Shown here: piece after piece, positions 13,871 to 35,341 of the stretch
Layout: every line of letters starts with the position of its first letter
Position numbering within the stretch: the stretch's first letter is position 1
NCBI RefSeq assembly: GCF_004365635.1
Contig: NZ_SOBH01000006.1
Coordinates: 1-51,944 of the forward strand
Reading direction: 5' to 3'
Length of the DNA stretch: 51,944 nt
Source: Litoreibacter halocynthiae
GTDB lineage: Bacteria; Pseudomonadota; Alphaproteobacteria; Rhodobacterales; Rhodobacteraceae
Notes under the pieces: model-generated
The model's input: only the letters and a program-made list of their open reading frames with translations
The model's database searches: none
What the model was told of the DNA's origin: nothing
Program-made: the position numbers and the translations under genes

Positions 13871-15055
13871 ATGAAACGTCGGAATTTTCTACGCAGCGCC
13901 GGGGCGCTAACTTTGGCCAGTACCTTGCCTGCGCCAATGGTTCTGCGGGCCGCAACGCCCGAAGATTATCACATTGCGGGCATTCTGTCTTTCTCGGGCG
14001 CATACGGCTTGATCGGCAATGACATGCGCAAAGGCGCGGAACTTGCCGTGGCCATGCGGGGTGGCGAATTGTTGGGCAAAAAAGTCCGCTTCAGCTGGGA
14101 AGACGATGAAACCAAACCCCAGCCCGCCGTACAAAAAGCAAGCCGGCTGTTGGCGGAAGGCACGCAATTGATGTTTGGCGCGGTCAGCTCAGCGTCGACT
14201 CTGGCACTGCAAAGCCTGTCCACACAGCGCAAGGTGCCGCATCTGGTCACGATTTCCGCAGACGACAGCATTACCAAGATGGACGGTGCGCGTTACTCAT
14301 TCCGTACGTCCAACACGTTGGCCATGGAAATGAACATGTGTGTTGAATTCGTAAAGAAACGCGGGATCAAGAGAGTATACGCGGTCACGGCTGATTATCA
14401 GGCCACGCGCAGCGCCTTTGACGACTTTGCCGCAAAAGCAAAAGCCGCCGGTGTCGAGATCGTCGGGAATGACTTTGCCCCGCTTGGCAACCGCGACTTT
14501 TCGGTCATCATCGACAAGATGGCGCGTTCGGACGCCGATGGTATTCTGGTTGTGGCAACGGGCAATGACGGCGTCACCTTCTGCAAGCAGGCAGGTCAGG
14601 TTGGGATGGGTCAGAACAAAGTGCTGTTCGGCCCCGTGCTTCAGGATGAAATCTTTGCAGCCGCGACAGGCGAGGCCGCATTGGGCGTGAACTCCGGCGT
14701 GCGTTATCACTTCTCGCTCGACAATCCGGCAAACGCCGAATTCGTGACGGCCTACCGTGACGCAAACGGTGACTACCCTTCGGCCTTCGCGGGCGAGGCA
14801 TTTGACGGTCTTCGCTGGTGGATGGATGTCATCGAAGCGACTGACAGCTGGGATGTGGAAACCTGGGTCGATGCATTTGAAACATCGGTCTATGAAAATT
14901 CGGTCGAAGGGCGCAAGGAAATGCGCGCTTGTGACCATCAGGCCAAACAGGTCGGTCTTTGGGGTGAAGTTGTGAAGGGCGAGGCACCATTGCCGGACCT
15001 CACCATGAAAATCACCGAAGAGTTTTCGGCAAATAGCCTGTTTAGCGACTGTTAA
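13871..15055 (+). CDS. ABC transporter solute-binding protein, branched-chain amino acid type (system 1)
   Basis: Periplasmic binding protein of 394 residues from the LivK/HAAT family (type I fold). The N-terminus MKRRNFLRSAG then ALTLASTLPAPMVLRA is a Tat-type signal (RRNFL followed by a weak hydrophobic core), so it is probably exported folded. The mature part has the family opening IAGILSFSGAYGLIGNDMRKGAELAV and the second-lobe segment VYAVTADYQATRSAFDDF. The ATG at 13871 follows GGGAGG. It begins the first operon, ahead of LivHMGF. Neighbouring CoA ligases suggest a carboxylic acid ligand rather than an amino acid; this is inference. Confidence 0.9.
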   Translation: MKRRNFLRSAGALTLASTLPAPMVLRAATPEDYHIAGILSFSGAYGLIGNDMRKGAELAVAMRGGELLGKKVRFSWEDDETKPQPAVQKASRLLAEGTQLMFGAVSSASTLALQSLSTQRKVPHLVTISADDSITKMDGARYSFRTSNTLAMEMNMCVEFVKKRGIKRVYAVTADYQATRSAFDDFAAKAKAAGVEIVGNDFAPLGNRDFSVIIDKMARSDADGILVVATGNDGVTFCKQAGQVGMGQNKVLFGPVLQDEIFAAATGEAALGVNSGVRYHFSLDNPANAEFVTAYRDANGDYPSAFAGEAFDGLRWWMDVIEATDSWDVETWVDAFETSVYENSVEGRKEMRACDHQAKQVGLWGEVVKGEAPLPDLTMKITEEFSANSLFSDC

Positions 15056-15073
15056 TCGATCCTCCCTGAACTG

Positions 15074-15115
15074 GGCGGCGCTGTTCCCTCGCGACATGCG
15101 TCGCCCGCTTTTTTG
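15074..15115 (+). terminator. terminator-like hairpin between SBP and LivH genes
   Basis: GGGCGGCG (15074-15081) pairs with CGTCGCCC (15100-15107), one G-U, followed by GCTTTTTT. It would reduce read-through from the binding-protein gene to the permease genes, giving the usual excess of binding protein. Confidence 0.65.
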
Positions 15116-15139
15116 GGGTGAAACTGAGGAACCCTGAAT

Positions 15140-15997
15140 ATGTCCATTATCGTGATCGGGCTGAGTCTCAGCTTTCTGCTGTTTCTGCTGGCAGCGGGCT
15201 TGACCCTTATTTTTGGCATGTTGGGGGTGATCAACTTTGCCCATGGCGCGCTTTATATGCTTGGCGCGTTTGTCGGGTATCAAATTGTTCATATGACCGG
15301 ATCGTTCTGGTTGGGACTGCTGTTTGCGCCGCTGATCGTCGCCTGTGTTGGTGCGCTGATCGAAATTTTGGCGCTGAAACAGGTCTATGACCGCGACCAC
15401 ATTTTTCAGCTTTTACTCACTTTCGGATTCATTCTGGTCATCGACGACGCGACAAAGATGATCTGGGGATTTGACTATAAGCAAGTGCCGACACCAGAAA
15501 TCTTCATGGCACCGATTTCCATGTTTGGCAGTCAAATACCGTCATACCGGCTTTTTGTAATCGGTTTTGGTGCAGCGGTTTCTCTGGCACTGTTCTTGCT
15601 GCTGGACCGTAGCAAATGGGGCATGATTATTCGCGCCGCCAGTTCCGATCCGGAAATGGCTCAGACACTCGGTGTAAATGTAAACCGGGTTCGCACCGGC
15701 GTCTTTGCGCTTGGTGCGTATCTTGCGGCTCTTGGTGGCGTGGTTAGCGCACCGTTGGTGCCGATCGAACTGGGCATGGGATTCAGCGTTATCATCGACT
15801 GTTTTGTCGTGGTGATCATCGGCGGGCTTGGGAACATTCGCGGCGCAATCCTTGCGTCGTTGCTGTTGGGCATGACGCGGGCGGCCGGATATACCTACGC
15901 AACTGAATGGGTCGAACTACTTACCTTTGCCCTGTTGATCGGAACGCTGATGTTCCGGCCTGCGGGCTTGTTTAGCACAAAGGGGCGTTCGGCATGA
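15140..15997 (+). CDS. branched-chain amino acid-type ABC permease LivH (system 1)
   Basis: Inner-membrane permease of 285 residues, LivH family, with about eight hydrophobic helices. Hallmarks are FGMLGVINFAHGALYMLGAFVGY near residues 27-49 and, late in the protein, VVVIIGGLGNIRGAILASLLLG, the cytoplasmic loop that contacts the ATPases. It pairs with LivM from the next gene (4-bp overlap). The start at 15140 has GAGGA nine bases upstream. Part of importer 1 with the Tat-exported binding protein. Confidence 0.92.
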   Translation: MSIIVIGLSLSFLLFLLAAGLTLIFGMLGVINFAHGALYMLGAFVGYQIVHMTGSFWLGLLFAPLIVACVGALIEILALKQVYDRDHIFQLLLTFGFILVIDDATKMIWGFDYKQVPTPEIFMAPISMFGSQIPSYRLFVIGFGAAVSLALFLLLDRSKWGMIIRAASSDPEMAQTLGVNVNRVRTGVFALGAYLAALGGVVSAPLVPIELGMGFSVIIDCFVVVIIGGLGNIRGAILASLLLGMTRAAGYTYATEWVELLTFALLIGTLMFRPAGLFSTKGRSA

Positions 15998-16944
15998 CAC
16001 GCAGGATTATCGGTCAGGCCCTGATGGGCATTATTATCGCAGTTATGATTATCGTTCCGTTTTTTGTGCAGGATGAGCAATGGGTGAACCTTGTCAGCCT
16101 GATCCTGATCTGGGCCTTGTTCGCAATCGGCTTTGATCTGGTCTTCGGGGTGACAGGTATGCTGTCATTCGGCCATGCGGCGTTGTTCGGGGCAGGGGGT
16201 TATGCGCTCACAATCCTCACCCTCAGCTATGGCGTCGGTTTTATACCGGGCCTTTTTGCAGCGGCGATTGTCGGAGCGGTGCTGGCTTACCTGATGGGGC
16301 TTTTTGCGCTTCGGGTTTCGGGGCTTTTTTTTGCACTGCTGACACTGGCCCTGGCGCAGATGATGTACATCCTTGCGTCCAACAAGCTGCGCGCAATCAC
16401 CGGCGGATTGGACGGTATTCCAGGCGTGCCGCGGCCTGACTTGTTCGGGATCAATTTCTACGACAACCACAACTATTATGGGTTTATCGTGGCGGTTTTC
16501 CTGATCGGACTGGCGCTGATGGCATTGCTGCGTGGGTCGCCATTCGGGCGGGCATTGCGCGCGGTACAGGCGAACGACGTGCGCGCCGCGCAACTCGGAT
16601 ACAACGTCCATAGCTTGCGCCAATCGGCGTTTATCGTTTCGGGTGCGTATGCAGGTGTTGCAGGAGCCCTGCTGGCATCGTTGATCTTCTACATCTCTCC
16701 GCAAATGCTGCATTGGTCCACATCGGGCGACGTTTTGATCATGACCGTGCTGGGCGGCAAAGGCACATTGCTAGGTCCGATTCTTGGCGTGGCCTTGTTT
16801 GAATTACTGAAAGAAGAACTGAGCCAAATCACCCAATATTGGTACGGCATCCTTGGTCTGGTGTTCATTTTTGCCACCATCTTCCTACGCAACGGTATTG
16901 CCGGAATGTTCCAAGGTGATCAGGACGAAGGAGACATGCAATGA
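15994..16944 (+). CDS. branched-chain amino acid-type ABC permease LivM (system 1)
   Basis: Second permease subunit, 316 residues, LivM family. Recognisable stretches are FGVTGMLSFGHAALFGAGGYAL (about 49-70), GRALRAVQANDVRAAQLGYNV and TVLGGKGTLLGPILGVALFELL, the coupling region. It overlaps LivH and LivG by 4 bp on each side, so the genes are translationally coupled. It forms the membrane channel of importer 1 with LivH. Confidence 0.92.
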   Translation: MTRRIIGQALMGIIIAVMIIVPFFVQDEQWVNLVSLILIWALFAIGFDLVFGVTGMLSFGHAALFGAGGYALTILTLSYGVGFIPGLFAAAIVGAVLAYLMGLFALRVSGLFFALLTLALAQMMYILASNKLRAITGGLDGIPGVPRPDLFGINFYDNHNYYGFIVAVFLIGLALMALLRGSPFGRALRAVQANDVRAAQLGYNVHSLRQSAFIVSGAYAGVAGALLASLIFYISPQMLHWSTSGDVLIMTVLGGKGTLLGPILGVALFELLKEELSQITQYWYGILGLVFIFATIFLRNGIAGMFQGDQDEGDMQ

Positions 16945-17690
16945 CTGCCGGATCATTGAGTTGCAACGATATTCAGGTCTCCTTCAGCGGGTTGAAAGCT
17001 GTCAACGGTGTGACGTTCGACTTCCAGCCGGGTCAGCTTTACGGGATTATCGGACCTAACGGTGCGGGCAAGACCACGTTGATGAATGCGCTTTCGGGTC
17101 ATGCCAAGCTAAGCGGTGGTCAAGTGATGCTGGACGGGCGCGATGTAACGGGCCTGTCGGTGCATAAACGGACCCGCATCGGTCTGGGCCGCAGTTTCCA
17201 GATCACCAAGATCTTCGCCGGCATGTCGGTGCTTGAGAACCTTCAACTTGCTGCTTTTGCGCATCTGTACAGGTTGCAGCCCTTCTGGCTTCCGGCGGGC
17301 CGCTTTCCTGCAGTCAGGGAACGGGCCGAAAGCGTTCTCGAAGAGATCGGCCTGACGGTGATGGCGCACCGCCCCGCCGAAACCTTGTCTCACGGCGATC
17401 AACGCGCATTGGAAGTCGGGCTGGCATTGCTGAGCAACCCATCGGTCCTGTTGCTCGATGAACCATTGGCCGGTGTTGGACATGACCAGATCGGGCCTGC
17501 GATGGAGCTGATAAAACGGATCGTCAAGGGCCGCACCGTGCTGCTGATCGAACACAACATGGACGTTGTAATGCGGGTCTCCAGTGCTTTGGTCGTGATG
17601 GTTCAAGGGCAAATTCTGGCGTCTGGCAGCCCTGAAGAAATCCGCGCAAACGCCGAGGTGCGAGCGGCTTATCTGGGAGAAGAGGAATGA
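16941..17690 (+). CDS. ABC transporter ATPase LivG (system 1)
   Basis: ATPase of 249 residues. Walker A is GPNGAGKTT (about 39-47). The signature position reads LSHGDQRALEVGLAL instead of LSGGQ, a His replacing the first Gly, as often seen in LivG proteins. Walker B is VLLLDEPLAGVG, and the switch His is in LLIEHNMDVV. It powers importer 1 together with LivF. Its start overlaps the livM stop and its end overlaps livF. Confidence 0.92.
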   Translation: MTAGSLSCNDIQVSFSGLKAVNGVTFDFQPGQLYGIIGPNGAGKTTLMNALSGHAKLSGGQVMLDGRDVTGLSVHKRTRIGLGRSFQITKIFAGMSVLENLQLAAFAHLYRLQPFWLPAGRFPAVRERAESVLEEIGLTVMAHRPAETLSHGDQRALEVGLALLSNPSVLLLDEPLAGVGHDQIGPAMELIKRIVKGRTVLLIEHNMDVVMRVSSALVVMVQGQILASGSPEEIRANAEVRAAYLGEEE

Positions 17691-18388
17691 AGCTGCTTGC
17701 GTTGGAAAGCTGCAATGTCACTTATGGCAAGGCGCAGGCGTTGCATAGCGTGTCGATCGAAGTCGCACAGGGCGAAGTTGTTTCGCTGATCGGGCGCAAT
17801 GGCGCAGGCAAAAGCACCATTCTCAAGACGATCATCGGTTTAAAGCAACCGGTTTCAGGGCGCAGAGTCTGGAAAGGGGACGACGTTACCGCGCGACTCC
17901 CGAACCAACTGGGCCGTCTGGGCATTGGGTATGTCCCCGAAGACAGGCGCATTTTTGACAATCTGACAGTGCATGAAAACCTGCGCATCGCAACCGTCAT
18001 GGGACGCACTGGCGCATGGACCGAAACCCGGATTTTTGAAATGTTTCCGGTGCTGCTTGATCGCGCGTCACAGGCGGGAAACACGCTTTCGGGCGGCGAA
18101 CAGCAAATGCTGGCGATTTCGCGCGCGCTTTTGACTAATCCGGAACTGTTGCTGCTGGACGAACCGACTGAAGGCCTTGCCCCGCTGATCGTTGATGAAT
18201 TGGTCGATTCGATGCGGCGGATCAACGAAGAAGGTATGACGCTTTTGCTGGTTGAACAGAACCTGCGCGTGCCGATGAAATTGGCCCATCGACAGTACGT
18301 TGTCGACAACGGGACCGTCCAGTGGAGCGGCACGACAGCAGATTTGCTGGCCAACCGCGAAGAGATCGAAAAGCTCATCAGTGTATGA
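17687..18388 (+). CDS. ABC transporter ATPase LivF (system 1)
   Basis: ATPase of 233 residues with Walker A GRNGAGKST, signature LSGGEQQMLAISRAL, Walker B LLLLDEPTEGLAPLIV and the switch region LLVEQNLRVPMKLAH. It is the second ATPase of importer 1, overlapping the LivG gene by 4 bp. A 51-bp gap follows before the first acyl-CoA ligase, so transport and activation genes are likely on one transcript. Confidence 0.92.
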   Translation: MKLLALESCNVTYGKAQALHSVSIEVAQGEVVSLIGRNGAGKSTILKTIIGLKQPVSGRRVWKGDDVTARLPNQLGRLGIGYVPEDRRIFDNLTVHENLRIATVMGRTGAWTETRIFEMFPVLLDRASQAGNTLSGGEQQMLAISRALLTNPELLLLDEPTEGLAPLIVDELVDSMRRINEEGMTLLLVEQNLRVPMKLAHRQYVVDNGTVQWSGTTADLLANREEIEKLISV

Positions 18389-18439
18389 GTTCAGACTGGC
18401 AAGGCGGGAAAATCCCGGAAACCAAGATAGGAAACCGTT

Positions 18440-19990
18440 ATGCGTGTGATCGATTTCTTCGACAGGGGTGTCGCAATCAACCCTAACGTGATCGCTTTGG
18501 AAGATGCTAAAATCGGCCGGAGTTACGGCGAAGTTCAGGAACGCACATATCGTTTCGCCAATGCCATCACTGCCGAAGGGTACGGACGCGACAAGATGGC
18601 CGGCGTTTACAGCCCCAACTGCGTGAGCGGCCTTGAAGTTATGCTGGGCTTGTTTCGTGCCGGCACGATCTGGGTTCCCGTCAATGCCAAGAACGGCGTA
18701 GAAGAAAACGCGTATATCCTGGATCATAATGATGTGGAGATTCTGTTTTATCACAGCGATCTTGCACCGGCGCTGGAACAATTGCGTGAACTTTGCCCAA
18801 AGATACAAAAATTCATCTGTCTGGATAAACAAGACGGCGCGGCACCATGGCTGGAAGACTGGATGGCCGCGGCCCCTTCAACCGATCCCGATGTGCCGCT
18901 TGGCCCTGATGATCTTGTCGGAATTTTATCCTCTGGTGGGACAACGGGGCGGCCCAAGGGGATCATGCTGACGCAGTTGAACTGGACCACGCTAATCGCG
19001 AACTATTATGCCAGTTTTGATGCCGGACCTGACCCTGTGCATTTGCTGATCACGCCTATGACCCACGCGTCAGGGGTGCTTGCCATTGCGTTGATGGCCG
19101 CTGGTGCGCGCAGCGTCATCCTGCCGGGATTTGATGCCGCCAACGTTCTAGACACAATTGAAAGCGAGGGAGTGACCCATCTGTTCCTGCCGCCGACCGC
19201 CGTTTACATGCTGTTGTCGCAACCGGAAGTTGCGCAACGTAGCTTTCCGTCATTGCGGTTCTTTCTTTATGCCGCCGCACCTATGGCCATTGACAAGCTG
19301 CGCCAATGCCTGAAGATTTTTGGGCCGGTCATGGCGCAGTGTTTCGGACAAGCAGAATCGCCGATGTTCTGCGCGCTGCTGACGGCAGAGGATCACAATG
19401 TTATCGGAGATCCGGCCCGCGAACACCGGCTTGCAAGTTGCGGCAGGCCCGCACTTTTGACACCGATGGCGATCATGGATGATGACGGTAACATTATGCC
19501 GCGTGGTGAGCATGGTGAAATTGTTGTGCGCGGAAATCTGGTGATGAAGGGGTATTACAAAAACCCCGAAGCAACCGCAGAGGTTTCCCAGTTCGGTTGG
19601 CACCATACCGGCGACATCGGGTATCTGGATGACGAGGGTTACCTTTATATCGTGGACCGCAAGAAAGACATGATCATTTCGGGCGGCTTCAACGTTTATC
19701 CCTCGGAAGTCGAGCAGGTGATCTGGTCGCATCCTGCCGTGCAGGATTGCGCGGTGATCGGTGTGCCTGACGAAAAATGGGGTGAAGCGATCAAGGCGGT
19801 GATCGAACTCAAACCCGATGCAACGGTGGAACCCGAAGCAATCATTGCATTGTGCAAGGAAAACCTTGGCAGCGTAAAGGCCCCCAAAACGGTTGACTTC
19901 TGGGATGAACTGCCGCGCAGCCCCGTTGGGAAAGTGCGCAAAAAGGACATCAGGGATACGTTCTGGCAGGGGCAAGCGCGCAGAATTTAG
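18440..19990 (+). CDS. AMP-binding acyl-CoA ligase 1
   Basis: Class I adenylate-forming enzyme of 516 residues that would turn an imported carboxylate into its CoA thioester with ATP. The phosphate-binding loop is SSGGTTGRPKG (164-174). Further motifs are FGQAESP (adenine-binding), HHTGDIGYLDDEGYLYIVDRKKDMI (hinge region) and a C-terminal catalytic lysine in SPVGKVRKKD. No signal peptide. A ribosome site AGGAAA precedes the ATG. It forms a tandem with a second ligase 11 bp downstream. The substrate cannot be assigned from sequence; a branched or cyclic acid is suggested by the neighbours. Confidence 0.88.
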   Translation: MRVIDFFDRGVAINPNVIALEDAKIGRSYGEVQERTYRFANAITAEGYGRDKMAGVYSPNCVSGLEVMLGLFRAGTIWVPVNAKNGVEENAYILDHNDVEILFYHSDLAPALEQLRELCPKIQKFICLDKQDGAAPWLEDWMAAAPSTDPDVPLGPDDLVGILSSGGTTGRPKGIMLTQLNWTTLIANYYASFDAGPDPVHLLITPMTHASGVLAIALMAAGARSVILPGFDAANVLDTIESEGVTHLFLPPTAVYMLLSQPEVAQRSFPSLRFFLYAAAPMAIDKLRQCLKIFGPVMAQCFGQAESPMFCALLTAEDHNVIGDPAREHRLASCGRPALLTPMAIMDDDGNIMPRGEHGEIVVRGNLVMKGYYKNPEATAEVSQFGWHHTGDIGYLDDEGYLYIVDRKKDMIISGGFNVYPSEVEQVIWSHPAVQDCAVIGVPDEKWGEAIKAVIELKPDATVEPEAIIALCKENLGSVKAPKTVDFWDELPRSPVGKVRKKDIRDTFWQGQARRI

Positions 19991-20001: not shown

Positions 20002-21510
20002 ATGAACATCGCGTACATTTTGACACAGTCCGCGCGCGCCTATTGCGATCGACCTGCCGTCTGCTTGGGGTTGTCGACGTTCAGCACCTACTCCCAATTA
20101 CAGGACCGCAGCGCGGCCTTGGCCGCTGCGCTGAAACAGCGCAATCTGGTAAAAGGTGACCGTGTTCTGATCTTCATGGGCAACCGGCCCGAATATATCG
20201 AGATCCTGTTTGCCATCTGGACTGCCGGATGTGTTGCCGTTCCGTTGAATGCCAAACTGCACCCTAACGAAGTGACCTATATCCATGCTAACTGTGATGC
20301 CGCACTTGCCTTTACCGACCGGCCGGAAGACGTCGAAGGGTTTTCAGCAGTCATTGCGGTCGGTGGACCGGAATATAATGCGGCGTTACAAGCGTCAGCG
20401 GATTTGCAGCCTGCACACGCTGCGCAAACCGATCCGGCATGGATTTTTTATACCAGCGGCACGACGGGCCGCCCGAAAGGGGCGATACTGACCCACCGCA
20501 ACCTCTGGACCATGACCACGAGTTTTCTGGCCGATATGTGTCCGGTTACGGAAATGTCGGCGGCGCTGCATCCGGCACCGCTGTCTCATGCGGCAGGGCT
20601 GTTTATGCTACCGTTTGCGCAGCGGGGCGCGGCGAATGTTGTGCCGCAAAGCGGTGGATTCGATCCGCATGAAATCGTGACGTTGCTGCATGAATATCCC
20701 CATTCATCTTTTTTTGTCGCACCCACGATGCTGACGCGTCTGACGGCCTGTCCTGCGCTTGACACGGCGGCCATCGAAAACCTTGATCTGTTGTTCTGCG
20801 GCGGTGCGCCGATTTATGTCGCAGACCTGCGCCGGGCGATGGCGCTGTTGGGCAACCGCATCTGGATCGGATACGGACAAGGCGAGGCACCATGTACGAT
20901 CACCTATCTACCACCGCATATATTGAGCTGGGAAATTCCGGATAGTTGGCTGGGATCCGTCGGCATTCCACGCACCGGCGTCACGGTCTGTGTGGTGGAT
21001 GAAACAGGCACACAATGCCCCCCAGATGTCGCGGGCGAAGTGATCGTCAGTGGCGATGTGGTGATGGCGGGATACTGGGGCAATGAAACGGCAACGGCGT
21101 CAGCCTTGCGGGACGGCTGGCTCCATACCGGCGACATTGGCAGCGTGGACGCCCACGGTTTCCTGACGCTCAAGGACCGGTCCAAGGACGTGATCATTTC
21201 TGGCGGGTCAAATATTTATCCGCGCGAGGTCGAAGAGGTGCTGCTGCGTCATTCCGGCGTGGTCGAAACTAATGTTGTTGGCCGCGAGGAGGCCGAATGG
21301 GGCGAGGAAGTCATCGCGTTTGTCGTGGCAGAGCCGGGCGTGACCGCACAGGCGCTGGACCGTTTTTGTCTGGATAACATAGCGCGGTTCAAGCGACCCA
21401 AGGCCTATTGCTTTGTTCTCGAACTGCCCAAAAGCAGCTACGGCAAAATACTTAAGACAGAGTTGCGCCAGATGCTGACCGACCCCGATACACAATTCGA
21501 AAAACCATAA
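20002..21510 (+). CDS. AMP-binding acyl-CoA ligase 2
   Basis: Second adenylate-forming acyl-CoA ligase, 502 residues. The P-loop YTSGTTGRPKG is at 150-160. YGQGEAP replaces the common YGxTE motif, LHTGDIGSVDAHGFLTLKDRSKD is the hinge, and the catalytic lysine lies in SSYGKILKTEL. It is clearly a paralogue of the preceding gene but diverged, so the two probably act on different intermediates, for example the starting acid and a shortened acid. GGAG upstream of the ATG supports the start at 20002. Confidence 0.87.
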   Translation: MNIAYILTQSARAYCDRPAVCLGLSTFSTYSQLQDRSAALAAALKQRNLVKGDRVLIFMGNRPEYIEILFAIWTAGCVAVPLNAKLHPNEVTYIHANCDAALAFTDRPEDVEGFSAVIAVGGPEYNAALQASADLQPAHAAQTDPAWIFYTSGTTGRPKGAILTHRNLWTMTTSFLADMCPVTEMSAALHPAPLSHAAGLFMLPFAQRGAANVVPQSGGFDPHEIVTLLHEYPHSSFFVAPTMLTRLTACPALDTAAIENLDLLFCGGAPIYVADLRRAMALLGNRIWIGYGQGEAPCTITYLPPHILSWEIPDSWLGSVGIPRTGVTVCVVDETGTQCPPDVAGEVIVSGDVVMAGYWGNETATASALRDGWLHTGDIGSVDAHGFLTLKDRSKDVIISGGSNIYPREVEEVLLRHSGVVETNVVGREEAEWGEEVIAFVVAEPGVTAQALDRFCLDNIARFKRPKAYCFVLELPKSSYGKILKTELRQMLTDPDTQFEKP

Positions 21511-28821: not shown

Positions 28822-29699
28822 CTGCCTTGTCTTTTGCCGATGCGATGCAGCTTTTTGTGGTCGGCCTGTCACAAGGGTGCCTTTATAGCCTGATCGCGAT
28901 TGGTCTGGTGCTTGTGTATAAGGCGACTGAGCAGGTGAATTTTGCCCAAGGCGAATTCATGATGCTGGGGGCATTTGTCGGGTATCAGTTCATCGTGCTG
29001 ATGGGGATGCCCTACTGGCTGGGTGCGATGTTGACATTGGTCTTCATGGGCGCATTCGGCTACGGCGTCGAAGCGCTTGTGGTGCGGCGCCTGACGGGCC
29101 AGCCGGTGTTCACTGTCTTTATCCTGACGCTGGCATTGGGTATCGCGCTCAGGGCGGTTGCAGGGATAATTTGGGGGTTTGGCAACTATTCGTTGCCTGC
29201 TCCGGTTGATGGCAATCTTACACTGGGCCCAGTGATCATTTCTTGGGCCAGCGTGTTGTCGATTGTTGTCACCGCGGTTGTCGCCAGCGCGCTGTACCTG
29301 TTTTTCCGTTACGCTCGGCAGGGTGTCGCCATGCAGGCGTTGTCCCTGAACCAGTTAGCAGCGTTCTACATGGGTATTCCTGTGAAACGGCTGACATCCT
29401 CGATCTGGGCAATGTCCGCGATCTTTGGCGGGATTGCCGGACTGCTCCTGGGGCCAATGACGTTGGTTTCGACGCAGATGGGTTTTATCGGGTTCAAGGC
29501 ATTTGCAGGGGCAATTGTCGGTGGTTTCGGCTCCATCCCCGGTGCGGTGATCGGTTGCTTGCTGATCGGTGTGACGGAACCGTTTTTCGATATCATGTTC
29601 CCGACCCTCAAAGGAATTGGTGCCTACTTGATCATGTTCCTTGTGCTGTTGATCCGTCCGCAAGGCCTGCTGGCCCAAATTTATGCAAAGAAGGTCTAA
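28818..29699 (+). CDS. branched-chain amino acid-type ABC permease LivH (system 2)
   Basis: Inner-membrane permease of 293 residues, LivH family, about eight hydrophobic segments. Marks: VYKATEQVNFAQGEFMMLGAFVGY (about 34-57) and FAGAIVGGFGSIPGAVIGCLLIG near the end. It starts inside the racemase stop (4-bp overlap), directly linking the second importer to the degradation genes. Distinct from LivH of system 1 (FAQGEF against FAHGAL), so this is a second transporter, not a recent duplicate. Confidence 0.92.
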   Translation: MTALSFADAMQLFVVGLSQGCLYSLIAIGLVLVYKATEQVNFAQGEFMMLGAFVGYQFIVLMGMPYWLGAMLTLVFMGAFGYGVEALVVRRLTGQPVFTVFILTLALGIALRAVAGIIWGFGNYSLPAPVDGNLTLGPVIISWASVLSIVVTAVVASALYLFFRYARQGVAMQALSLNQLAAFYMGIPVKRLTSSIWAMSAIFGGIAGLLLGPMTLVSTQMGFIGFKAFAGAIVGGFGSIPGAVIGCLLIGVTEPFFDIMFPTLKGIGAYLIMFLVLLIRPQGLLAQIYAKKV

Positions 29700-29702: not shown

Positions 29703-30782
29703 ATGCGCGTAATTTTTCGCAAATCCTATGTTCAGGACATCCAGCTTTTCCGCGACCGTGGACAGGCATTCTGGTATCTGCTGTTTGCCGCGATCGCACT
29801 GGCCGCGCCGCTGTTTCTGGACGGCTATTTTCTGGATGAACTCTCATTCGTATTCATCTATGCTATCGCGGGTCTCGGGCTAATGGTGCTGACCGGATTT
29901 TCCGGGCAGGTGAGTTTCGGACAGGCGGCGTTTGTCGCAATCGGTGCCTACACTCACACGATCCTGCTGACCCGTTACAGCGTGCCGTGGCTTTTGTCGC
30001 TGCCGATAGCGGCGTTGGTGGCTGGGCTGGTCGGGTTGGCCGTCGGACGGATCTGCGGAAAGATGCACGGGCTGTATCTGGCGATTGCCACGCTTTCGAT
30101 TGCGATTGTGACCGAACGGCTCATCGGTGGTGCGGGCGATTTCACAGGCGGTCATCGTGGCCTTTCGGTGCCGGAAATCAATATTCTCGGGCTGGCCATC
30201 GACGAAAGCTGGAAAGTTTATCTGCTGAATTTTGTCATCTTCGTGGGTTGTATCCTGATCGTTCGCAACCTGACACGCACAAGGTCGGGTCGCGCCATGA
30301 TTGCGATCCGCGACTCCGAAGTGTCGGCGCGGGCGTTGGGAACCAATGTGGCCTTCTTCAAGGCATATGCGTTCTTCATCTCGGCAGTTTTTGCGGGCCT
30401 CGCGGGCGGGCTGCTGGCGCACGCCTTCTTCTACATCACGCCGGAAACCTTCGGAATGGGGGAATCCATCCGTCTGCTGTTGATGATCGTCGTCGGCGGG
30501 ATCGGAACCATCCACGGCGCGGTTTTTGGGGCGTTCTTTATCGTGCTGCTGCCAACCGTGTTGAGCTGGGTCAAGATCGTGCTGCCCAGTGCAGTCGCCA
30601 CGTCCGGCGGTTTCGATAGTCTTGCATTCGGTCTGATCCTGCTGGGGTTCATCCTGTTCGAACCTGACGGACTTTATGGACGCTGGACCAAGATCCATCA
30701 CTATTTCAACGTGTTCCCGATGTACAAGAAGCGCAGTTTCCAGCGTCAGAAGACATTCCTCAAAACGGAGCGTTTAAGATGA
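29703..30782 (+). CDS. branched-chain amino acid-type ABC permease LivM (system 2)
   Basis: LivM-family permease, 359 residues, longer than its system 1 counterpart because of a charged N-terminus of about 30 residues and a basic C-terminal tail after the last helix (ending near KTERLR). Family marks: LTGFSGQVSFGQAAFVAIGAYT, SGRAMIAIRDSEVSARALG and MIVVGGIGTIHGAVFGAFFIVLLP. It overlaps LivG 2 by 4 bp. Forms the channel of importer 2 with LivH 2. Confidence 0.91.
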   Translation: MRVIFRKSYVQDIQLFRDRGQAFWYLLFAAIALAAPLFLDGYFLDELSFVFIYAIAGLGLMVLTGFSGQVSFGQAAFVAIGAYTHTILLTRYSVPWLLSLPIAALVAGLVGLAVGRICGKMHGLYLAIATLSIAIVTERLIGGAGDFTGGHRGLSVPEINILGLAIDESWKVYLLNFVIFVGCILIVRNLTRTRSGRAMIAIRDSEVSARALGTNVAFFKAYAFFISAVFAGLAGGLLAHAFFYITPETFGMGESIRLLLMIVVGGIGTIHGAVFGAFFIVLLPTVLSWVKIVLPSAVATSGGFDSLAFGLILLGFILFEPDGLYGRWTKIHHYFNVFPMYKKRSFQRQKTFLKTERLR

Positions 30783-31546
30783 ACGGGTTGGAGATAGATA
30801 ACGTATCGCTTTCCTTTGGTGGTTTGAAAGCGGTGGATGGCTTGAGCTTTTCAGTTGAACCGGGGTCGGTGTTCACCATCATTGGCCCCAATGGCGCGGG
30901 CAAAAGCACGGTGTTCAACCTCATCTGCCGGATTTACGATCCGTCGCAAGGCGACATCCGGTTCAACGGCAAAAGCCTGCGAAAAGCGAAATCCCATGAG
31001 GTAATCAACCACGGCATTGCGCGGACGTTCCAGAATATCGAACTGTTCGAACATGCGTCATTGCTTGATAACTTGCTGATCGGGCGCATCCGTCACGGCA
31101 AATTCGGGCCTCTGAGTGAGCTGTTTTTTACCCGTTCGCAGATGCGTCAGGAACTGGCCCACCGCCGCAAAGCCGAAGAAATAATCGAGTTTCTTGATCT
31201 CGAAGGCTACCGTCATGCACGGGTTGCGGATTTGCCGTATGGCGTGCGCAAAAAGACCGAAATGGCCCGCGCGTTGGTGTCGGAGCCAAAGATCCTGTTG
31301 CTGGACGAACCGTCAAGCGGACTGACCAGCGAGGAAACCGACGATACTGCTTTTGTGATTGAAGATATCCGCGAGGTCCTGGGTGTCACCGTTGTTATGA
31401 TCGAACACGACATGAAACTGGTGAACAAAGTTTCGGACATGGTGCTGGCCATCAACGAAGGCCGGTTTCTTGCAAGCGGCAGCGCATCCGAAGTTCAAAG
31501 CGATCCCGATGTTCAGGCGGCATATCTGGGAGGGCAGGCAGCATGA
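30779..31546 (+). CDS. ABC transporter ATPase LivG (system 2)
   Basis: ATPase of 255 residues: Walker A GPNGAGKST (about 37-45), signature LPYGVRKKTEMARAL in place of LSGGQ, Walker B ILLLDEPSSGLT and switch His in VMIEHDMKLV. The degenerate signature is common in LivG. It is coupled by 4-bp overlaps to LivM 2 and LivF 2. Confidence 0.92.
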   Translation: MNGLEIDNVSLSFGGLKAVDGLSFSVEPGSVFTIIGPNGAGKSTVFNLICRIYDPSQGDIRFNGKSLRKAKSHEVINHGIARTFQNIELFEHASLLDNLLIGRIRHGKFGPLSELFFTRSQMRQELAHRRKAEEIIEFLDLEGYRHARVADLPYGVRKKTEMARALVSEPKILLLDEPSSGLTSEETDDTAFVIEDIREVLGVTVVMIEHDMKLVNKVSDMVLAINEGRFLASGSASEVQSDPDVQAAYLGGQAA

Positions 31547-32313
31547 CCGAGGTACTGCGCGCCAGCAACGTCGAAACGATGTATGGCAGGGTGATGGCCA
31601 TTCGCGGCATCAGCCTGACGGTCAAGGAAGGGTCGGTCGTTACGGTCATGGGCTCCAATGGGGCGGGCAAAACGACGATTTTGAAAACCATCTCCGGCGC
31701 GCTTGATCCGTTCAAGGGGCAGGTGGAATTTGAAGGGCGCGATATCACCGCGCTTGACCCAGATGTCATCGCGCGCGCCGGCATCGCCCATTCACCCGAA
31801 GGGCGCGAAGTGTTTTCCCTCTTGTCGGTCAAGGACAACCTGATGATGGGTGCCTATTGCCGCAAGGATCGCGATGAAGTGGCGCGTGACTTGGAAAAGG
31901 TGCTGGGCTGGTTTCCCGTGCTGCGCACCTTTCTGGAAAAGCAGGCGATCTATCTATCTGGCGGGCAACAACAGATGTTGGCTTTGGGTCGCGCGTTTAT
32001 GCAGCGTCCGCGCGTGATGTTGCTGGACGAGCCGTCGCTGGGCCTGTCACCGCTCCTGATTTCCGAGATTTTCCAGATCATCAAACGGATCAACGTCGAA
32101 GAAGGCGTGACCATGTTGCTGGTTGAACAGAACGCCAGTGTTGCGCTGCCGGCCGCCGATTTCGGGTACGTCCTTGAAACCGGCCGGATCGTTATGGAAG
32201 GTGAACGCGACGTTCTCATGAAAAGTGCTGACATTCGCGAATTCTACCTTGGCATCAAAGCAGAAAGTGCGCGCGGCGACCGCCGCTGGAAAGCAAGAAA
32301 GACGTGGCGATGA
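31543..32313 (+). CDS. ABC transporter ATPase LivF (system 2)
   Basis: ATPase of 256 residues with Walker A GSNGAGKTT, signature LSGGQQQMLALGRAF, Walker B VMLLDEPSLGLSPLL and LLVEQNASVAL. It completes importer 2. The C-terminus has a short basic tail. It overlaps the third ligase gene by 4 bp, so uptake and activation are again co-expressed. Confidence 0.92.
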   Translation: MTEVLRASNVETMYGRVMAIRGISLTVKEGSVVTVMGSNGAGKTTILKTISGALDPFKGQVEFEGRDITALDPDVIARAGIAHSPEGREVFSLLSVKDNLMMGAYCRKDRDEVARDLEKVLGWFPVLRTFLEKQAIYLSGGQQQMLALGRAFMQRPRVMLLDEPSLGLSPLLISEIFQIIKRINVEEGVTMLLVEQNASVALPAADFGYVLETGRIVMEGERDVLMKSADIREFYLGIKAESARGDRRWKARKTWR

Positions 32314-34157
32314 ACACAATGCAAGACCAATCCACCGCAGGATGGACGCCGCCGCCGGTCCAGATTGACGGCTGTGACACGTTCTCCAAACTGTTCCGGC
32401 AGAACTGCAAGAAGTTCGGCAACAAAATCGCAATCCGCGAAAAGGATTTCGGCATCTGGAAAGAATTCAGCTGGCTGGACTATTACGCATCCGCGCGCAG
32501 GGTCGGGTGTTCACTTATGGCGTTGGGCTACCGTGAAGGTGACGTGGCCGCGATCATTAGTGAAGACAACAAGGAGTGGGTGTTTGCCGACCTTGGCATC
32601 CAGTGCATCGGGGCCACGACTCACGGGCTATATCCTACTTTGCAGGAAAAGCAAGTTGCCTATCAGTTGAACGATAGCGGAGCGAAGGTGCTATTCGTTG
32701 AGGATGAAGAGCAGCTAGATAAGTATCTGGGTGTGGAGGACCAGCTTGATCATCTCGAAAAAGTTATCGTATTTGATATGGAAGGGTTGCGCAGTTTCCA
32801 GCATGACAAAGTCATAGGCTGGGAAGAATTTCTCGCACTGTCGGACGCTAAAATCGAAGAACTGAGCGTTGAATTTGAGCGCCGCGTTGATGCGGGCGAT
32901 CCCGAAGATATCGCAACGCTGATCTATACGTCCGGCACAACCGGTGCTCCCAAAGGTGCCGCGATGTCGCACCGCTTCTTTCTAGCGCAATCGGATAATT
33001 ACCCCGAATTGCCGCTCGGACCGGGCGATGAAGTTTTGACGTTCCTGCCGCTGTGTCACGCGGCCGAACGGATCCTGTCTGTCTGCGTGCCGATCCGTCA
33101 CGGCATAACCATCAACATCGCGGAAAGCGGCGATACATTTGCCGCTGACATTCAGGAAGTCGCGCCAACATTCATCTTTGCGGTGCCGCGCGTGTGGGAA
33201 AAATTCTATTCCCGTATCAATTTTGTGATGAATGATGCCACCGCATTTGGCCGGTTTGCCTATGACCAAGCCCTGAAAACGGCTGGACGCAGGGAGGCAT
33301 TGATTGCTGCGGGAAAATCTGTGCCGACGATGCTTAGGCTTAGGCATAAGGTGCTGGACTTTCTGGTGCTTCGAAATATCAGGGTCGAACTGGGACTGGC
33401 GCGCGCGCATACGATCGTATCGGGTGCGGCACCGATTTCAGCCCGACTGCTCAGCTGGTTCAATGCCCTTGGGGTGACAGTACAAGAGGCATATGGCCAG
33501 ACCGAAACCGGCATTGTGACTGCAACCATACCGGGCAGATCACCGATCGGTTCCATCGGCCGGGCAATGCGCAATGTCGAAGCGAAACTGGCCGATGACG
33601 GTGAAATCCTCATTCGCTCATCCAGCAATTTTTCGGGTTATCTGAACCAGCCTGAAAAGACGGCGGAAACCGTGGTCGATGGCTGGGTCTATACGGGTGA
33701 TGTTGGGACGATGGATGCCAATGGTGACCTAACTATTCTGGACCGCAAGAAGGACATCATCATCACCGCAGGCGGCAAGAACATTACGCCTTCGCAGTTG
33801 GAAAACGAGCTCAAATTCTCGCCCTATATTTCTGATGCGGTGATCATCGGGGACAAGCGCAAATACCTGAGCGTGCTGATCATGATCGACCACGAAAACG
33901 TTGAAAAATACGCGCAGGAAAAGCGTATCCCGTTTTCCAACTACAAATCCCTGTGCGCAAACACCCAAATCCAGGACTTGATCGAAGGCGAGGTGGAACA
34001 GGCGAACAGCGGTTTCGCGCCGGTCGAGCAGGTAAAGAAATTCCGGCTGATCGACGTACTTTTGACAGCCGAAGACGACGAGCTGACTCCGACGATGAAG
34101 CTTAAGCGCAACGAGATCGAGCGCAAATACAAAGACCTGATCGAAACGATGTATTGA
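32310..34157 (+). CDS. long-chain-type AMP-binding acyl-CoA ligase 3
   Basis: Acyl-CoA ligase of 615 residues, longer than ligases 1 and 2 and of the long-chain fatty acyl-CoA synthetase type that often accompanies LivFGHM operons. P-loop YTSGTTGAPKG, then FAVPRVWEKFYSR, YGQTETG, YTGDVGTMDANGDLTILDRKKDIIITAGGKNITPSQLEN, and a C-terminal MKLKRNEI with the likely catalytic lysine. The ATG at 32310 overlaps the LivF stop; a GTG two codons upstream is possible. It would activate the acid brought in by importer 2. Confidence 0.88.
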   Translation: MNTMQDQSTAGWTPPPVQIDGCDTFSKLFRQNCKKFGNKIAIREKDFGIWKEFSWLDYYASARRVGCSLMALGYREGDVAAIISEDNKEWVFADLGIQCIGATTHGLYPTLQEKQVAYQLNDSGAKVLFVEDEEQLDKYLGVEDQLDHLEKVIVFDMEGLRSFQHDKVIGWEEFLALSDAKIEELSVEFERRVDAGDPEDIATLIYTSGTTGAPKGAAMSHRFFLAQSDNYPELPLGPGDEVLTFLPLCHAAERILSVCVPIRHGITINIAESGDTFAADIQEVAPTFIFAVPRVWEKFYSRINFVMNDATAFGRFAYDQALKTAGRREALIAAGKSVPTMLRLRHKVLDFLVLRNIRVELGLARAHTIVSGAAPISARLLSWFNALGVTVQEAYGQTETGIVTATIPGRSPIGSIGRAMRNVEAKLADDGEILIRSSSNFSGYLNQPEKTAETVVDGWVYTGDVGTMDANGDLTILDRKKDIIITAGGKNITPSQLENELKFSPYISDAVIIGDKRKYLSVLIMIDHENVEKYAQEKRIPFSNYKSLCANTQIQDLIEGEVEQANSGFAPVEQVKKFRLIDVLLTAEDDELTPTMKLKRNEIERKYKDLIETMY

Positions 34158-34177
34158 AACACCAAAGGGAGAGACCA

Positions 34178-35341
34178 ATGAAGAAACTAGCAACAGCACT
34201 TGCGTTTACCGCAATGACAGCCACCGGCGCGATGGCCGAGGGGCTGCAGGGCGTGACCGACGACATGATCACGCTTGGCACCTATACGGACCTAAGCGGG
34301 CCGTTGGCAGTCTGGGGTGTGCCCGAGGCGAATGGCCTGCGCATGCGCGTGGACGAGATCAATGCGGCGGGCGGCATTCACGGTCGCCAGCTTGAGATTA
34401 TAATCGAGGACACGCAATATCAGGTGCCCCGCGCGATTCAGGTTGCAAACAAACTGATGCGCCGCGACCAGATTTTTGCGATGGTTGGCGCGCTTGGCAC
34501 ACCGATGAACCTAGCGATCATGCCGCAACAAATTGAAGCGGGAATTCCCAACATGTTCCCGATGTCGGCCGAGGTCGAGATGTATGAACCATTGGATCCG
34601 ATGAAATACGCATTTTTTCGCAGCTATACAGACCAGTTTCGCGCGGGCGTTGCATACTTCAAGGAAAATGGTGATTTCTCAACACCCTGCATTGCGCAAC
34701 TCGCAAATGAAGCTGGTGAATCAATGGCGCTTGGCGTCACGCAGCAATTGGCAGAGTATGACATGAAAGTCGCGGCCAAAACGGAGCATTCGGCAACCGA
34801 ATCCGATATGCTCTCGTCTGTAACCACATTGAAAAACGCCGGTTGCGATATCGTGTTTCTGGCGGGTGGGGTGCGCGATACAATTCTAGTTGTTGCAACA
34901 TCTAAAAAGCTTGGTTTTGAACCGACTTTCGTGACTGGAATGGTGTCCTATATGGATGCAGTTGCGACTGCCGCTGATGGCGCGATGGATGGTCTATATC
35001 TGGTATCGCCTTTTGTTTTTGCGAACGCAGGAGACTCCGAAGGGGAAGCAAAACGTATCCTGGAGAGTTACAGCGAAATTTACGGTGAAAAGATGGCCCC
35101 ACAAGCGCAGCTTGGTTACGTTTTCATCGACCTGATTGCCGTGGCGCTCGAAGCTGCTGGTCGCGATCTGACGACCGAAGGATTTCTGGCCGCAACCGAA
35201 GCGATCACTAGCTATGTTGATCCGATCGGCGGCCAGTCGGTCAGCTTTGGCCCGGAAGACCATCAGGGCATCGAAAGTCTGATTATGGCAAAAGTCGAAG
35301 ACGGTAAATGGACTATTGCGGCCCGCGGGCTCGACTACTAA
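34178..35341 (+). CDS. ABC transporter solute-binding protein (system 2)
   Basis: Periplasmic binding protein of 387 residues, LivK/HAAT type. The Sec signal MKKLATALAFTAMTATGAMA is cleaved before EG, in contrast to the Tat signal of system 1. The mature part opens ITLGTYTDLSGPLAVWGVPEANGLRM and includes EINAAGGIHGRQLEI, both typical. The ATG at 34178 follows AAAGGGAG. It is the last gene of the second operon, followed by a terminator. The ligand is probably a carboxylic acid but is not assignable. Confidence 0.9.
   Translation: MKKLATALAFTAMTATGAMAEGLQGVTDDMITLGTYTDLSGPLAVWGVPEANGLRMRVDEINAAGGIHGRQLEIIIEDTQYQVPRAIQVANKLMRRDQIFAMVGALGTPMNLAIMPQQIEAGIPNMFPMSAEVEMYEPLDPMKYAFFRSYTDQFRAGVAYFKENGDFSTPCIAQLANEAGESMALGVTQQLAEYDMKVAAKTEHSATESDMLSSVTTLKNAGCDIVFLAGGVRDTILVVATSKKLGFEPTFVTGMVSYMDAVATAADGAMDGLYLVSPFVFANAGDSEGEAKRILESYSEIYGEKMAPQAQLGYVFIDLIAVALEAAGRDLTTEGFLAATEAITSYVDPIGGQSVSFGPEDHQGIESLIMAKVEDGKWTIAARGLDY

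Follow-up and report, generated by a model that had tools for sequence, protein, structure and literature searches.

A plasmid island of Litoreibacter halocynthiae that joins two importer and CoA-ligase cassettes, one predicted to degrade an alpha-methyl-branched acid

A contig of Litoreibacter halocynthiae (NZ_SOBH01000006.1; the window, 51,944 nucleotides, is the whole stretch of DNA that was analysed) carries two ABC importers together with CoA ligases and beta-oxidation enzymes, and the question arises whether these genes form one pathway and what they degrade. The original prediction read the stretch from the ATG of one binding protein gene (13871) to the end of another (35341) as a full uptake, activation and beta-oxidation module for an alpha-methyl-branched acid, with two dedicated importers. 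Algal lipids are a large input of methyl-branched isoprenoid carbon to the sea, and to our knowledge little is known of the roseobacter genes for its uptake. The island is a fusion of two cassettes, M1 and M2, each of which is also found alone. We propose with moderate confidence that the fusion is recent and that M2 would import, activate, racemise and beta-oxidise an alpha-methyl-branched acid, most likely of the isoprenoid type.

Extent and plasmid setting of the island

The predicted plasmid location is borne out by repABC genes at 5840-9301 in the window and by the plasmid records that match them, at full length and at least 99.0% identity in at least 25 plasmid records listed (26 in that identity band). 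The mobile island core is defined by comparison with three other plasmids:

12210-36108 (no strand): mobile island core, shared with three other plasmids at 99.93-99.96% identity

In two of these three plasmids the identity begins within the MerR gene (12051-12434), and in two of the three it extends to about 36140. The island measures approximately 23.9 kb, with 13871-35341 as its core. The left edge and the neighbouring genes vary among the near-identical plasmids, all three of which have IS elements near the island; no inverted repeats of a transposon-type boundary were found within either end stretch, each end being searched by itself. The bacteria with island plasmids come from algal cultures, a copepod and seawater. 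Genes are spaced by -4 to +84 bp within two runs, with 211 bp between the runs, and because of these tight spacings and the conservation of M2 order among relatives, the gene set is considered more than a chance assembly.

Two cassettes and their separate occurrence

M1 consists of an AraC gene, SBP1-LivHMGF, two CoA ligases, an SCP2-thiolase and an SDR:

12051-12434, minus strand: MerR-family regulator, beside AraC; putative member of M1
12486-13535, minus strand: AraC-family regulator (PF12625 and HTH_18), divergent from M1
13871-15055, plus strand: SBP1, the periplasmic binding protein of M1, with Pro for LivK Glu226 and Ala for Thr102
15140-15997, plus strand: LivH-type permease
15994-16944, plus strand: LivM-type permease
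16941-17690, plus strand: LivG-type ATPase
17687-18388, plus strand: LivF-type ATPase
18389-18439 (no strand): 51-bp gap, where a third thiolase (Thio3T) lies between LivF and a ligase in Tistrella, P. pseudonitzschiae P5 and genome G731
18440-19990, plus strand: Lig1, AMP-forming acyl-CoA ligase
20002-21510, plus strand: Lig2, AMP-forming acyl-CoA ligase
21526-22710, plus strand: Thio1, SCP2-type thiolase; NCSSGS, HDCF and GHP motifs intact
22707-23522, plus strand: SDR1, FabG-like short-chain dehydrogenase

SDR1 is a second short-chain dehydrogenase of the island, absent from the original prediction. M2 has the order ECH-thiolase-ACAD-HSD17B10-like SDR-racemase-LivHMGF-ligase-SBP2-TetR:

23700-23717 (no strand): 18-bp perfect palindrome TTACTTACTGGTAAGTAA, probable operator of M2 with TetR as putative binder
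23734-24522, plus strand: ECH, crotonase-type hydratase that keeps the Glu144-type residue and has His at the Glu164-type position
24535-25773, plus strand: Thio2, thiolase; Cys86, His307 and His357, HDAT replacing HDCF
25783-26919, plus strand: ACAD, acyl-CoA dehydrogenase; Asp at the MCAD Glu376 position
26928-27701, plus strand: SDR2, HSD17B10-like 3-hydroxyacyl-CoA dehydrogenase
27706-28821, plus strand: predicted alpha-methylacyl-CoA racemase (AMACR/MCR type)
28818-29699, plus strand: LivH-type permease
29703-30782, plus strand: LivM-type permease
30779-31546, plus strand: LivG-type ATPase
31543-32313, plus strand: LivF-type ATPase
32310-34157, plus strand: Lig3, FadD11-like acyl-CoA ligase encoded within the transporter operon
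34178-35341, plus strand: SBP2, the M2 binding protein, with Met for LivK Glu226
35400-36023, plus strand: TetR-family regulator (PF00440 and PF17932), last M2 gene; start codon provisional

The predicted gene content is thus all present: two LivHMGF sets, each with a binding protein, three AMP-forming CoA ligases, and a single crotonase-type hydratase, acyl-CoA dehydrogenase and HSD17B10-like SDR. A search for the same gene order, proposed with the original prediction, found that M2 keeps its order in relatives whose proteins are as little as about 65-76% identical (S. alexandrii; TetR 47%). P. albus, Phaeobacter G2 and S. alexandrii have M2 but not M1, as do several further named contigs within the stretches examined; the named-genome scan relied on two short peptide patterns, which miss more distant relatives. 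M1 occurs without M2 in Tistrella pTM1 and P. pseudonitzschiae P5, in both of which a 64% identical AraC relative adjoins it.

That M1 and M2 form one pathway for one substrate, with both importers serving a single acid or the fragments that arise from it in turn, appears unlikely. The three near-identical plasmids preserve the fused order, and so do Celeribacter and EhC04 over the extent of the stretches examined; however, the near-identical copies count as a single event, MED193 retains M2 beside an M1 truncated inside Lig2, and no copy of the palindrome precedes M1. More in favour of coupling is the distribution of the HDAT-type thiolase, which is missing from the M1 of the fused island but present in four of the five other M1-like loci examined, and a search of the genome with Thio2 (E <=1e-5) returned only Thio2 and Thio1. 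M1 may therefore need M2, and Thio2 may serve both cassettes. The logic of uptake, activation and beta-oxidation is supported, but its assignment to one module with two dedicated importers is not, since the cassettes occur apart and have their own regulators and M1 is truncated in MED193. Relatives of Thio2 (69%) are also found without the remaining M2 genes, in loci L086 and L087, neither of which points to a substrate.

Enzymes, importers and a candidate operator

The one CaiB-fold protein of M2 is predicted to be an alpha-methylacyl-CoA racemase of AMACR/MCR type, in agreement with the original prediction. Its His, Asp and Glu are intact, it has AGHD and IADQGGG motifs (His and Asp, which we take to be His126 and Asp156 of MCR, are kept in 13 of 13 M2 racemases aligned), and its top PDB matches are FAR, AMACR and MCR (326-305 bits), CoA transferases scoring 138 bits at most. 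The best PDB matches of SDR2 are type-2 3-hydroxyacyl-CoA dehydrogenases (HSD17B10; 228 bits to 1so8), and the Tyr of its Tyr-x-x-x-Lys motif is present in 14 of 14 M2 loci. The best NCBIfam model for Lig3 is FadD11, a fatty-acid ligase (391 bits, under the cut-off of 950).

The other M2 enzymes depart from their nearest textbook families. The dehydrogenase proves not to be "IVD-like": the position of the IVD/LCAD base, presumably Glu254 of IVD, is Ala, and that of the MCAD/SCAD base, Glu376 of MCAD, is Asp; both hold in all 14 M2 loci and all 120 homologues listed. The acidic residue at the latter position agrees with the acyl-CoA dehydrogenase superfamily. Among chromosomal acyl-CoA dehydrogenases of the same genome, L103 has Glu at the IVD position and L104 has Asp at the MCAD position; a B. 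pyrrocinia relative (59% identical) has Glu at the MCAD position. Of the two SCP-x-type thiolases originally proposed, both are thiolase-fold proteins and Thio1 is of SCP2 type (652 bits against a model cut-off of 436; nucleophilic Cys, HDCF and GHP motifs at residues 79, 291 and 339), but Thio2, at 312 bits, falls below the cut-off. All 16 loci have HDAT in place of HDCF, and its His, Ala and Thr are each constant in the 120 homologues listed; two of six context loci have HDAS. Thio2 retains Cys86 and the GHP His. ECH keeps the first of the two catalytic Glu of a canonical enoyl-CoA hydratase (presumably 144 and 164), but all 14 loci and all 120 homologues listed have His for the second; its hydratase role is a predicted one. 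Because ACAD, ECH and Thio2 deviate in these residues, a standard turn of beta-oxidation is an assumption, and because the residues are constant in the 120 homologues listed per enzyme, they mark wider subfamilies; the idea that they are specific to the island was rejected.

Sphingomonadales and Burkholderiales also have the ECH-Thio2-ACAD core, with different uptake genes and without the palindrome. Eight wider-core loci include four with racemase relatives (46-48%), two with weak CaiB matches (31-37%; SK025 and DC-6) and two with none. In Sulfitobacter SK025 the genes around the core include a biotin-dependent carboxylase, HMG-CoA lyase, LIV genes and a CaiB-family gene, a context expected for isoprenoid chains. 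A gammaproteobacterial relative (L120) has a racemase, a ligase, several ACADs and two Thio1-like thiolases. ACAD searches (E <=1e-110) found matches in at least 2 of 398 genomes of the phylum, the window's own included, and homologue P0046 was matched in at least 1 of 369 genomes of the class of genome G825, 4-5 candidates being scored per genome so that both counts are lower bounds. The predicted alpha-methyl branch is supported by the AMACR-type racemase and the HSD17B10-like SDR, but the M2 relative of genome G137, in which SDR2 adjoins LivH directly, yielded no racemase by tblastn in the stretches to which the search was confined, which lowers confidence in this reading.

Compared with LivJ/LivK, the island binding proteins have Met (SBP2) or Pro (SBP1) in place of Glu226 (mature numbering), presumably the ligand of the amino group, and both have Ala in place of Thr102, which we take to have a binding role as well. 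The island importers thus differ from branched-chain amino acid LIV systems at both positions. Import of branched-chain amino acids, with the enzymes serving general fatty-acid or amino-acid catabolism, would suit the LivHMGF and binding protein architecture and the nearest NCBIfam transporter models (branched-chain amino acid or urea), but all of these score under their cut-offs, and the island has no aminotransferase or ketoacid dehydrogenase. With both binding proteins devoid of the amino-group Glu, the M1 and M2 importers are unlikely to be amino-acid importers, and we consider this reading as a whole extremely improbable. The best PDB match of SBP1 is 4ey3 (107 bits); 4ey3- and 4evq-like proteins are, we assume, binders of aromatic or other carboxylates.

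New in this analysis is the palindrome before M2, which recurs in relatives and has been carried to a pair of genes for a GMC alcohol dehydrogenase and an aldehyde dehydrogenase (ALDH) in two loci. It occurs at one place in the genome, and in 1.70 Mb of loci searched with up to 2 mismatches, 17 of 17 matches precede ECH or ALDH (4 are the window's own site, 6 are in near-identical islands and 7 are in 5 other loci, with G137 in addition), and the reversed control gave 0. With up to 3 mismatches it was not found in wider-core or M1 loci except for one match in L122, and its absence from the wider-core loci indicates that it marks the M2 of roseobacters and not the chemistry. It is the probable operator of M2, a candidate for which TetR is the putative binder; passages of the LiuQ/FadP regulon paper (PMC5343134) gave no motif for comparison. 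ALDH-GMC adjoins M2 in loci L005, L009, L080 and L083 and the ECH-Thio2-ACAD core in Porphyrobacter, and is not beside M2 in the window's island, P. albus or the G137 stretches. In L005 the M2 promoter is duplicated in inverted orientation (135 bp, 99.3%) before ALDH-GMC, and L083 has the same arrangement, with the palindrome. This placement suggests that the acid may derive from a primary alcohol. No ALDH in the window's genome is a close match (best 31%), and its GMC relatives reach only 40-43%, so the strain would rely on other enzymes were the substrate an alcohol.

Candidate substrates and comparison with known systems

In the reaction order and stereochemistry that we infer for M2, LivHMGF and SBP2 would import a carboxylic acid without an amino group, Lig3 would form its CoA thioester, the racemase would convert the (2R)-methyl form to the (2S) form, and ACAD, ECH, SDR2 and Thio2 would carry out one round of beta-oxidation yielding propionyl-CoA. 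The TetR repressor would act at the palindrome, probably being released by a CoA ester. In several relatives the GMC alcohol dehydrogenase and aldehyde dehydrogenase would feed the same pathway, and the substrate would be an alpha-methyl-branched acid from a primary alcohol, most likely isoprenoid-type and possibly made from alcohols of algal lipids. M1 would be a second cassette for a related acid and may borrow Thio2.

Among the substrates originally proposed, isoprenoid-type acids are the favoured candidate class for M2 on the genomic evidence, sterol and bile-acid side chains are disfavoured, and 2-arylpropionates find nothing for or against them. An isoleucine-type short-chain module for 2-methylbutanoate, derived from 2-methylbutanol by GMC and ALDH, in place of longer isoprenoid acids, is improbable in our estimation, even though the racemase, ACAD, ECH, SDR and thiolase match the (R)-2-methylbutanoyl-CoA route exactly, humans use HSD17B10 to break down isoleucine and LIV-type importers mostly carry small acids; the fatty-acid ligase model matched by Lig3 speaks against it, as do the carboxylase and HMG-CoA lyase beside the SK025 core, which would be superfluous for 2-methylbutanoate. 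Degradation of sterol or bile-acid side chains appears very unlikely. AMACR and SCP2-thiolases do act on sterol side chains, and the closest PDB match of the M2-associated ALDH is steroid aldehyde dehydrogenase (350 bits); yet there is one ACAD and not a pair, Thio2 has a thiolase Cys and HDAT where Sal has YDCY, and the best match in the genome to a 3-ketosteroid dehydrogenase model, the one ring enzyme model used, reached 26 bits against a cut-off of 789. The island also lacks a MaoC/DUF35 partner of the Shy/Sal type described in PMC12329534.

Titles and opening lines of abstracts yielded nothing on the island, and no measured substrate, expression or enzyme data were found there. The papers cited here gave no measurement of the chemistry of the enzyme subfamilies whose catalytic residues are altered. 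The main text of the Sulfitobacter D7 transcriptome paper (PMC9873259) does not contain "acyl-CoA", "beta-oxidation", "p2SUD7" or "B5M07", nor does that of the Alcanivorax pristane proteome paper (PMC6850023) contain "racemase". A passage of PMC8538451, citing Arenskotter 2008, states that Mcr is needed for the use of polyisoprene and methyl-branched isoprenoids.

The island offers a testable unit (importer, regulator, palindrome and four-enzyme core) and points to enzyme subfamilies with changed catalytic residues. A further reading is tentative and somewhat doubtful: the ECH-Thio2-ACAD-SDR set may be a distinct, undescribed beta-oxidation module for alpha-methyl-branched chains from isoprenoid alcohols such as phytol, marked by His for the second hydratase Glu, HDAT for HDCF and an Asp dehydrogenase base, and plasmid-borne in phytoplankton-associated roseobacters with an importer, a racemase and a TetR operator able to capture alcohol- and aldehyde-oxidising genes.

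Several known systems resemble the island in part. Peroxisomal AMACR-dependent beta-oxidation, the pristanic acid route for 2-methyl-branched acids, uses the same kinds of enzyme on 2-methylacyl-CoAs (racemase, dehydrogenase, hydratase, HSD-type SDR and thiolase), whereas the bacterial enzymes of the island are separate, include an Asp-type ACAD and an HDAT-type thiolase, and are encoded on a plasmid with ABC importers and a TetR gene. Isoleucine degradation via 2-methylbutanoyl-CoA has the same four reactions, an HSD17B10-type SDR and thiolysis to propionyl-CoA, but the island, without transaminase or ketoacid dehydrogenase, starts with import and CoA ligation and has a racemase. LIV-type (HAAT) importers for aromatic and other carboxylates likewise combine LivHMGF with a binding protein, and both binding proteins of the island are devoid of the LivJ/LivK amino-group Glu; the SBP2 clade differs in being encoded together with an embedded acyl-CoA ligase. 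The proteobacterial bile-acid side-chain pathway (Shy, Sal, Sad) is similar in its steroid-type ALDH and thiolase-fold enzyme, but M2 lacks the hydratase-aldolase pair and paired ACADs, and the one model used found no steroid ring gene. The acyclic terpene (Atu/Liu) pathway is resembled by the SK025 ECH-Thio2-ACAD core beside a biotin-dependent carboxylase and HMG-CoA lyase, whereas the window's island has neither of these and would handle an alpha-methyl and not a beta-methyl branch.

Two cassettes on a mobile plasmid island

The window forms the initial 51,944 bases of its contig (NZ_SOBH01000006.1) in an alphaproteobacterial genome of 3.68 Mb. Besides the island it carries the following features:

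5840-9301, repABC, the plasmid replication genes
3861-5627, Fic-domain protein adjoining the replicon
2682-3704, ArdC-like anti-restriction protein with a zincin-type domain
37271-41431, RND efflux pump and adaptor, immediately beyond the right end of the island
43697-48004, large strawberry-notch-type helicase, a type also annotated on M2-bearing plasmids of Paracoccus albus and Phaeobacter sp. G2

Among the plasmid records listed, repABC has 25 full-length matches at no less than 99.0% identity, 17 of them in Phaeobacter. The island genes are arranged as two tight plus-strand runs separated by 211 bp, with spacings of -4 to +84 bp inside the runs, and both runs have a G+C content of 56%, against 57-58% in the flanks. 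They belong to two cassettes: M1 (AraC, binding protein SBP1, LivHMGF, the ligases Lig1 and Lig2, thiolase Thio1 and the FabG-like SDR1) and M2 (ECH, Thio2, the acyl-CoA dehydrogenase ACAD, SDR2, racemase, LivHMGF, ligase Lig3, SBP2 and TetR).

Window positions 12,210-36,108 match plasmid d of Pseudosulfitobacter sp. DSM 107133 at 99.95% identity, and the match extends beyond these limits in p2SUD7 of Sulfitobacter sp. D7 (99.93%) and pSMR1-7 of P. pseudonitzschiae (99.95%); flanking genes differ among the three plasmids on both sides. Near-identical stretches are also present in Celeribacter baekdonensis, Sulfitobacter sp. EhC04 and Roseobacter sp. MED193, the last starting inside Lig2 and continuing onward only. 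All such copies represent one recent lineage and were counted as a single event.

Each cassette also occurs separately. M2, from ECH to TetR, occurs with no M1 on p3 of Paracoccus albus (96.4% DNA identity), in S. alexandrii (68%) and in Phaeobacter sp. G2 (75%). A scan of named genomes with the Thio2 alignment yielded 14 loci, 12 of them at 69% or above; M2 was seen in ten of these 12, one of which ends with its contig inside the racemase gene, and the other two (L086 and L087) have Thio2 without the remaining M2. M1 with no M2 is present on pTM1 of Tistrella mobilis (AraC 64%, remaining M1 proteins 70-84% identical) and on plasmid P5 of P. pseudonitzschiae SC1-30. Relatives of SBP1 are rare: with a threshold of E 1e-40, they appear in 6 of 385 genomes of the class (own genome counted) and in 16 of 72,556 plasmid records. 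The unit LivHMGF-ligase-SBP2 is more frequent, since 58 of 394 genomes of the family encode SBP2-like proteins at the same threshold (own genome counted, up to 4 candidates scored per genome); these are 30-45% identical, except the genome's own and one in G137 (69%), and the unit has many different gene neighbours across 20 stretches. In S. alexandrii, TRAP transporter genes lie before M2 (L009 8687-11491), and ORFs of similar size occupy the same place in Maritimibacter dapengensis (L084 1018-3822), two of which may be TRAP-like, judging by their first residues.

Catalytic residues and the wider core

Residues were compared across 13 to 16 loci, which include near-identical copies and amount to about four or five lineages: the racemase, whose closest solved structures are FAR, AMACR and MCR, keeps His and Asp in 13/13 aligned M2 sequences and Glu in all 12 that reach that site; Thio2 keeps Cys86 and the GHP His, with HDAT replacing HDCF in 16/16 loci; ACAD has Asp where Glu is usual, and Ala at the IVD site, in 14/14; and ECH keeps the first catalytic Glu, the second being His in 14/14. 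HSD17B10 provides the closest solved structures for SDR2. Larger samples agree: His, Ala and Thr are each present in 120/120 Thio2 homologues (best 120 of 7920 matches), the same Asp and Ala in 120/120 ACAD homologues (best 120 of 1773) and the His in 120/120 ECH homologues (best 120 of 1578). Among context loci, HDAS occurs in two of six for Thio2; for ACAD, six of eight further loci have Asp and the other two Glu, one Glu case being a different ACAD (37% identity); and for ECH, seven of eight have His, the eighth being a 36% match from an unrelated setting. The genes originally predicted are real, with two labels to amend: the dehydrogenase is not IVD-like, and of the supposed two SCP-x-type thiolases only Thio1 is a canonical SCP2-type enzyme. 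Asp at the Glu376 position is also seen (WDGTSE) in an acyl-CoA dehydrogenase encoded on the chromosome of this genome (L104, C4:269566-270693).

LivJ and LivK bind the amino group of their ligand through the Glu at mature position 226. In an alignment with these E. coli proteins, Met takes its place in SBP2 and five relatives; SBP1 and two relatives have Pro there, and the remaining seven sequences have Ser or Thr. Of the 16 sequences from outside E. coli, 15 have Ala at the Thr102 position and one has Gly. These replacements argue against amino acids as ligands.

The order ECH-Thio2-ACAD recurs on plasmids of Porphyrobacter sp. YT40, Burkholderia pyrrocinia, Caballeronia grimmiae and Sulfitobacter sp. 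SK025, with an SDR in all four stretches and a ligase in three. In Porphyrobacter, an aldehyde dehydrogenase (ALDH, 45%) and a GMC alcohol dehydrogenase (68%) lie upstream of the ligase, the closest relative of the SDR is other than SDR2, and TonB receptors are nearby in place of LIV genes. In SK025 (L127 5268-17421 and L131), the core is joined to a biotin-dependent carboxylase, HMG-CoA lyase and dienoyl-CoA reductase, in a catabolic cluster that also holds a LIV importer and CaiB-family genes. Such pairing with different importers is as expected for a chemistry-defining unit. Scattered versions of the core are present in Rhizorhabdus wittichii DC-6 and Sphingomonas bisphenolicum. Many plasmids of Sulfitobacter and Pseudosulfitobacter carry a Thio2 relative at about 62%.

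A palindrome and its duplication

One site stands out upstream of M2:

23,700-23,717, 18-bp perfect palindrome TTACTTACTGGTAAGTAA, 16 bp 5' of the ECH start

At up to 3 mismatches it is the single site in the window (0.03 expected), and a relaxed pattern is found at a single place in the 3.68-Mb genome (reversed control 0). In 1.70 Mb of collected loci (E. coli excluded), all 17 matches with up to 2 mismatches precede ECH or ALDH (reversed 0), these being the window's own site again (4), near-identical island copies (6) and 7 in five loci. G137 has the palindrome before ECH with one mismatch, read over the junction of two stretches, and S. alexandrii-type loci have a weaker form (3-4 mismatches). 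At up to 3 mismatches it is absent from wider-core and M1 loci, except for one match in L122 (17031) outside the core genes. The adjacent TetR protein of M2 is the putative binder.

In Phaeobacter sp. G2 (L005 13100-14860), ALDH-GMC is preceded by a 135-bp inverted copy (99.3%) that spans the ECH promoter, the palindrome and the first codons, and Pelagimonas (L083) has the same arrangement. In L005 the copy apparently recruited both genes. The arrangement connects the oxidation of alcohols and aldehydes with the M2 regulon in L005 and L083. S. alexandrii and Maritimibacter harenae likewise have ALDH-GMC next to M2; the pair is not beside M2 in P. albus, in the G137 stretches or in the window's island.

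Possible coupling of the cassettes and candidate substrates

Four M1-like loci have an extra thiolase beside the Liv genes: Tistrella and, with 86%, 63% and 45% identity to the Tistrella protein, P. pseudonitzschiae P5, G731 and G497. A fifth, more distant locus (L076) is without it, and the window's M1 has a 51-bp gap at that place. Thio2 of M2 is 55% identical to the Tistrella enzyme and shares its HDAT, and a genome search with Thio2 (E 1e-5 or better) matched only Thio2 and Thio1. The window's M1 therefore probably lost its thiolase and may use Thio2, which is the best, though indirect, support for functional coupling. The idea of one pathway with two importers stands in part: M1 may depend on Thio2, but the cassettes occur separately.

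The racemase, the HSD17B10-type SDR, the thiolase and the alcohol and aldehyde oxidation of relatives fit an alpha-methyl-branched acid derived from a primary alcohol as the predicted substrate of M2. The racemase is not universal: G137 has no racemase gene in M2, where SDR2 adjoins LivH (L046 15929-15962), nor in its other available stretches by tblastn, and among eight wider-core loci (L120, L122-L125, L127-L129) four have racemase relatives (46-48%), two have weak CaiB matches (31-37%), of which that in SK025 may be a transferase, and two have neither. This lowers our confidence in the overall reading from slightly better than even to even. Isoprenoid-type chains are favoured because of the neighbours in SK025 and because bacteria are reported to need Mcr to grow on methyl-branched isoprenoids and polyisoprene (PMC8538451); 2-methylbutanoate, a short chain, remains a serious rival for M2. 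Sterol or bile-acid side chains, also proposed originally, are unlikely, since a model of 3-ketosteroid dehydrogenase, one ring enzyme, had no genome match over the cut-off and partner genes are missing. In PMC9873259, branched-chain amino acid transporters of Sulfitobacter D7 are reported to be highly expressed with algal metabolites, and the main text has 'plasmid' twice, both on benzoate genes of another plasmid.

What is new here is the two-cassette structure, the palindrome with the duplicated promoter, and the set of catalytic residues that marks the core. The system would be a variant of an established type, AMACR-dependent beta-oxidation with dedicated uptake.
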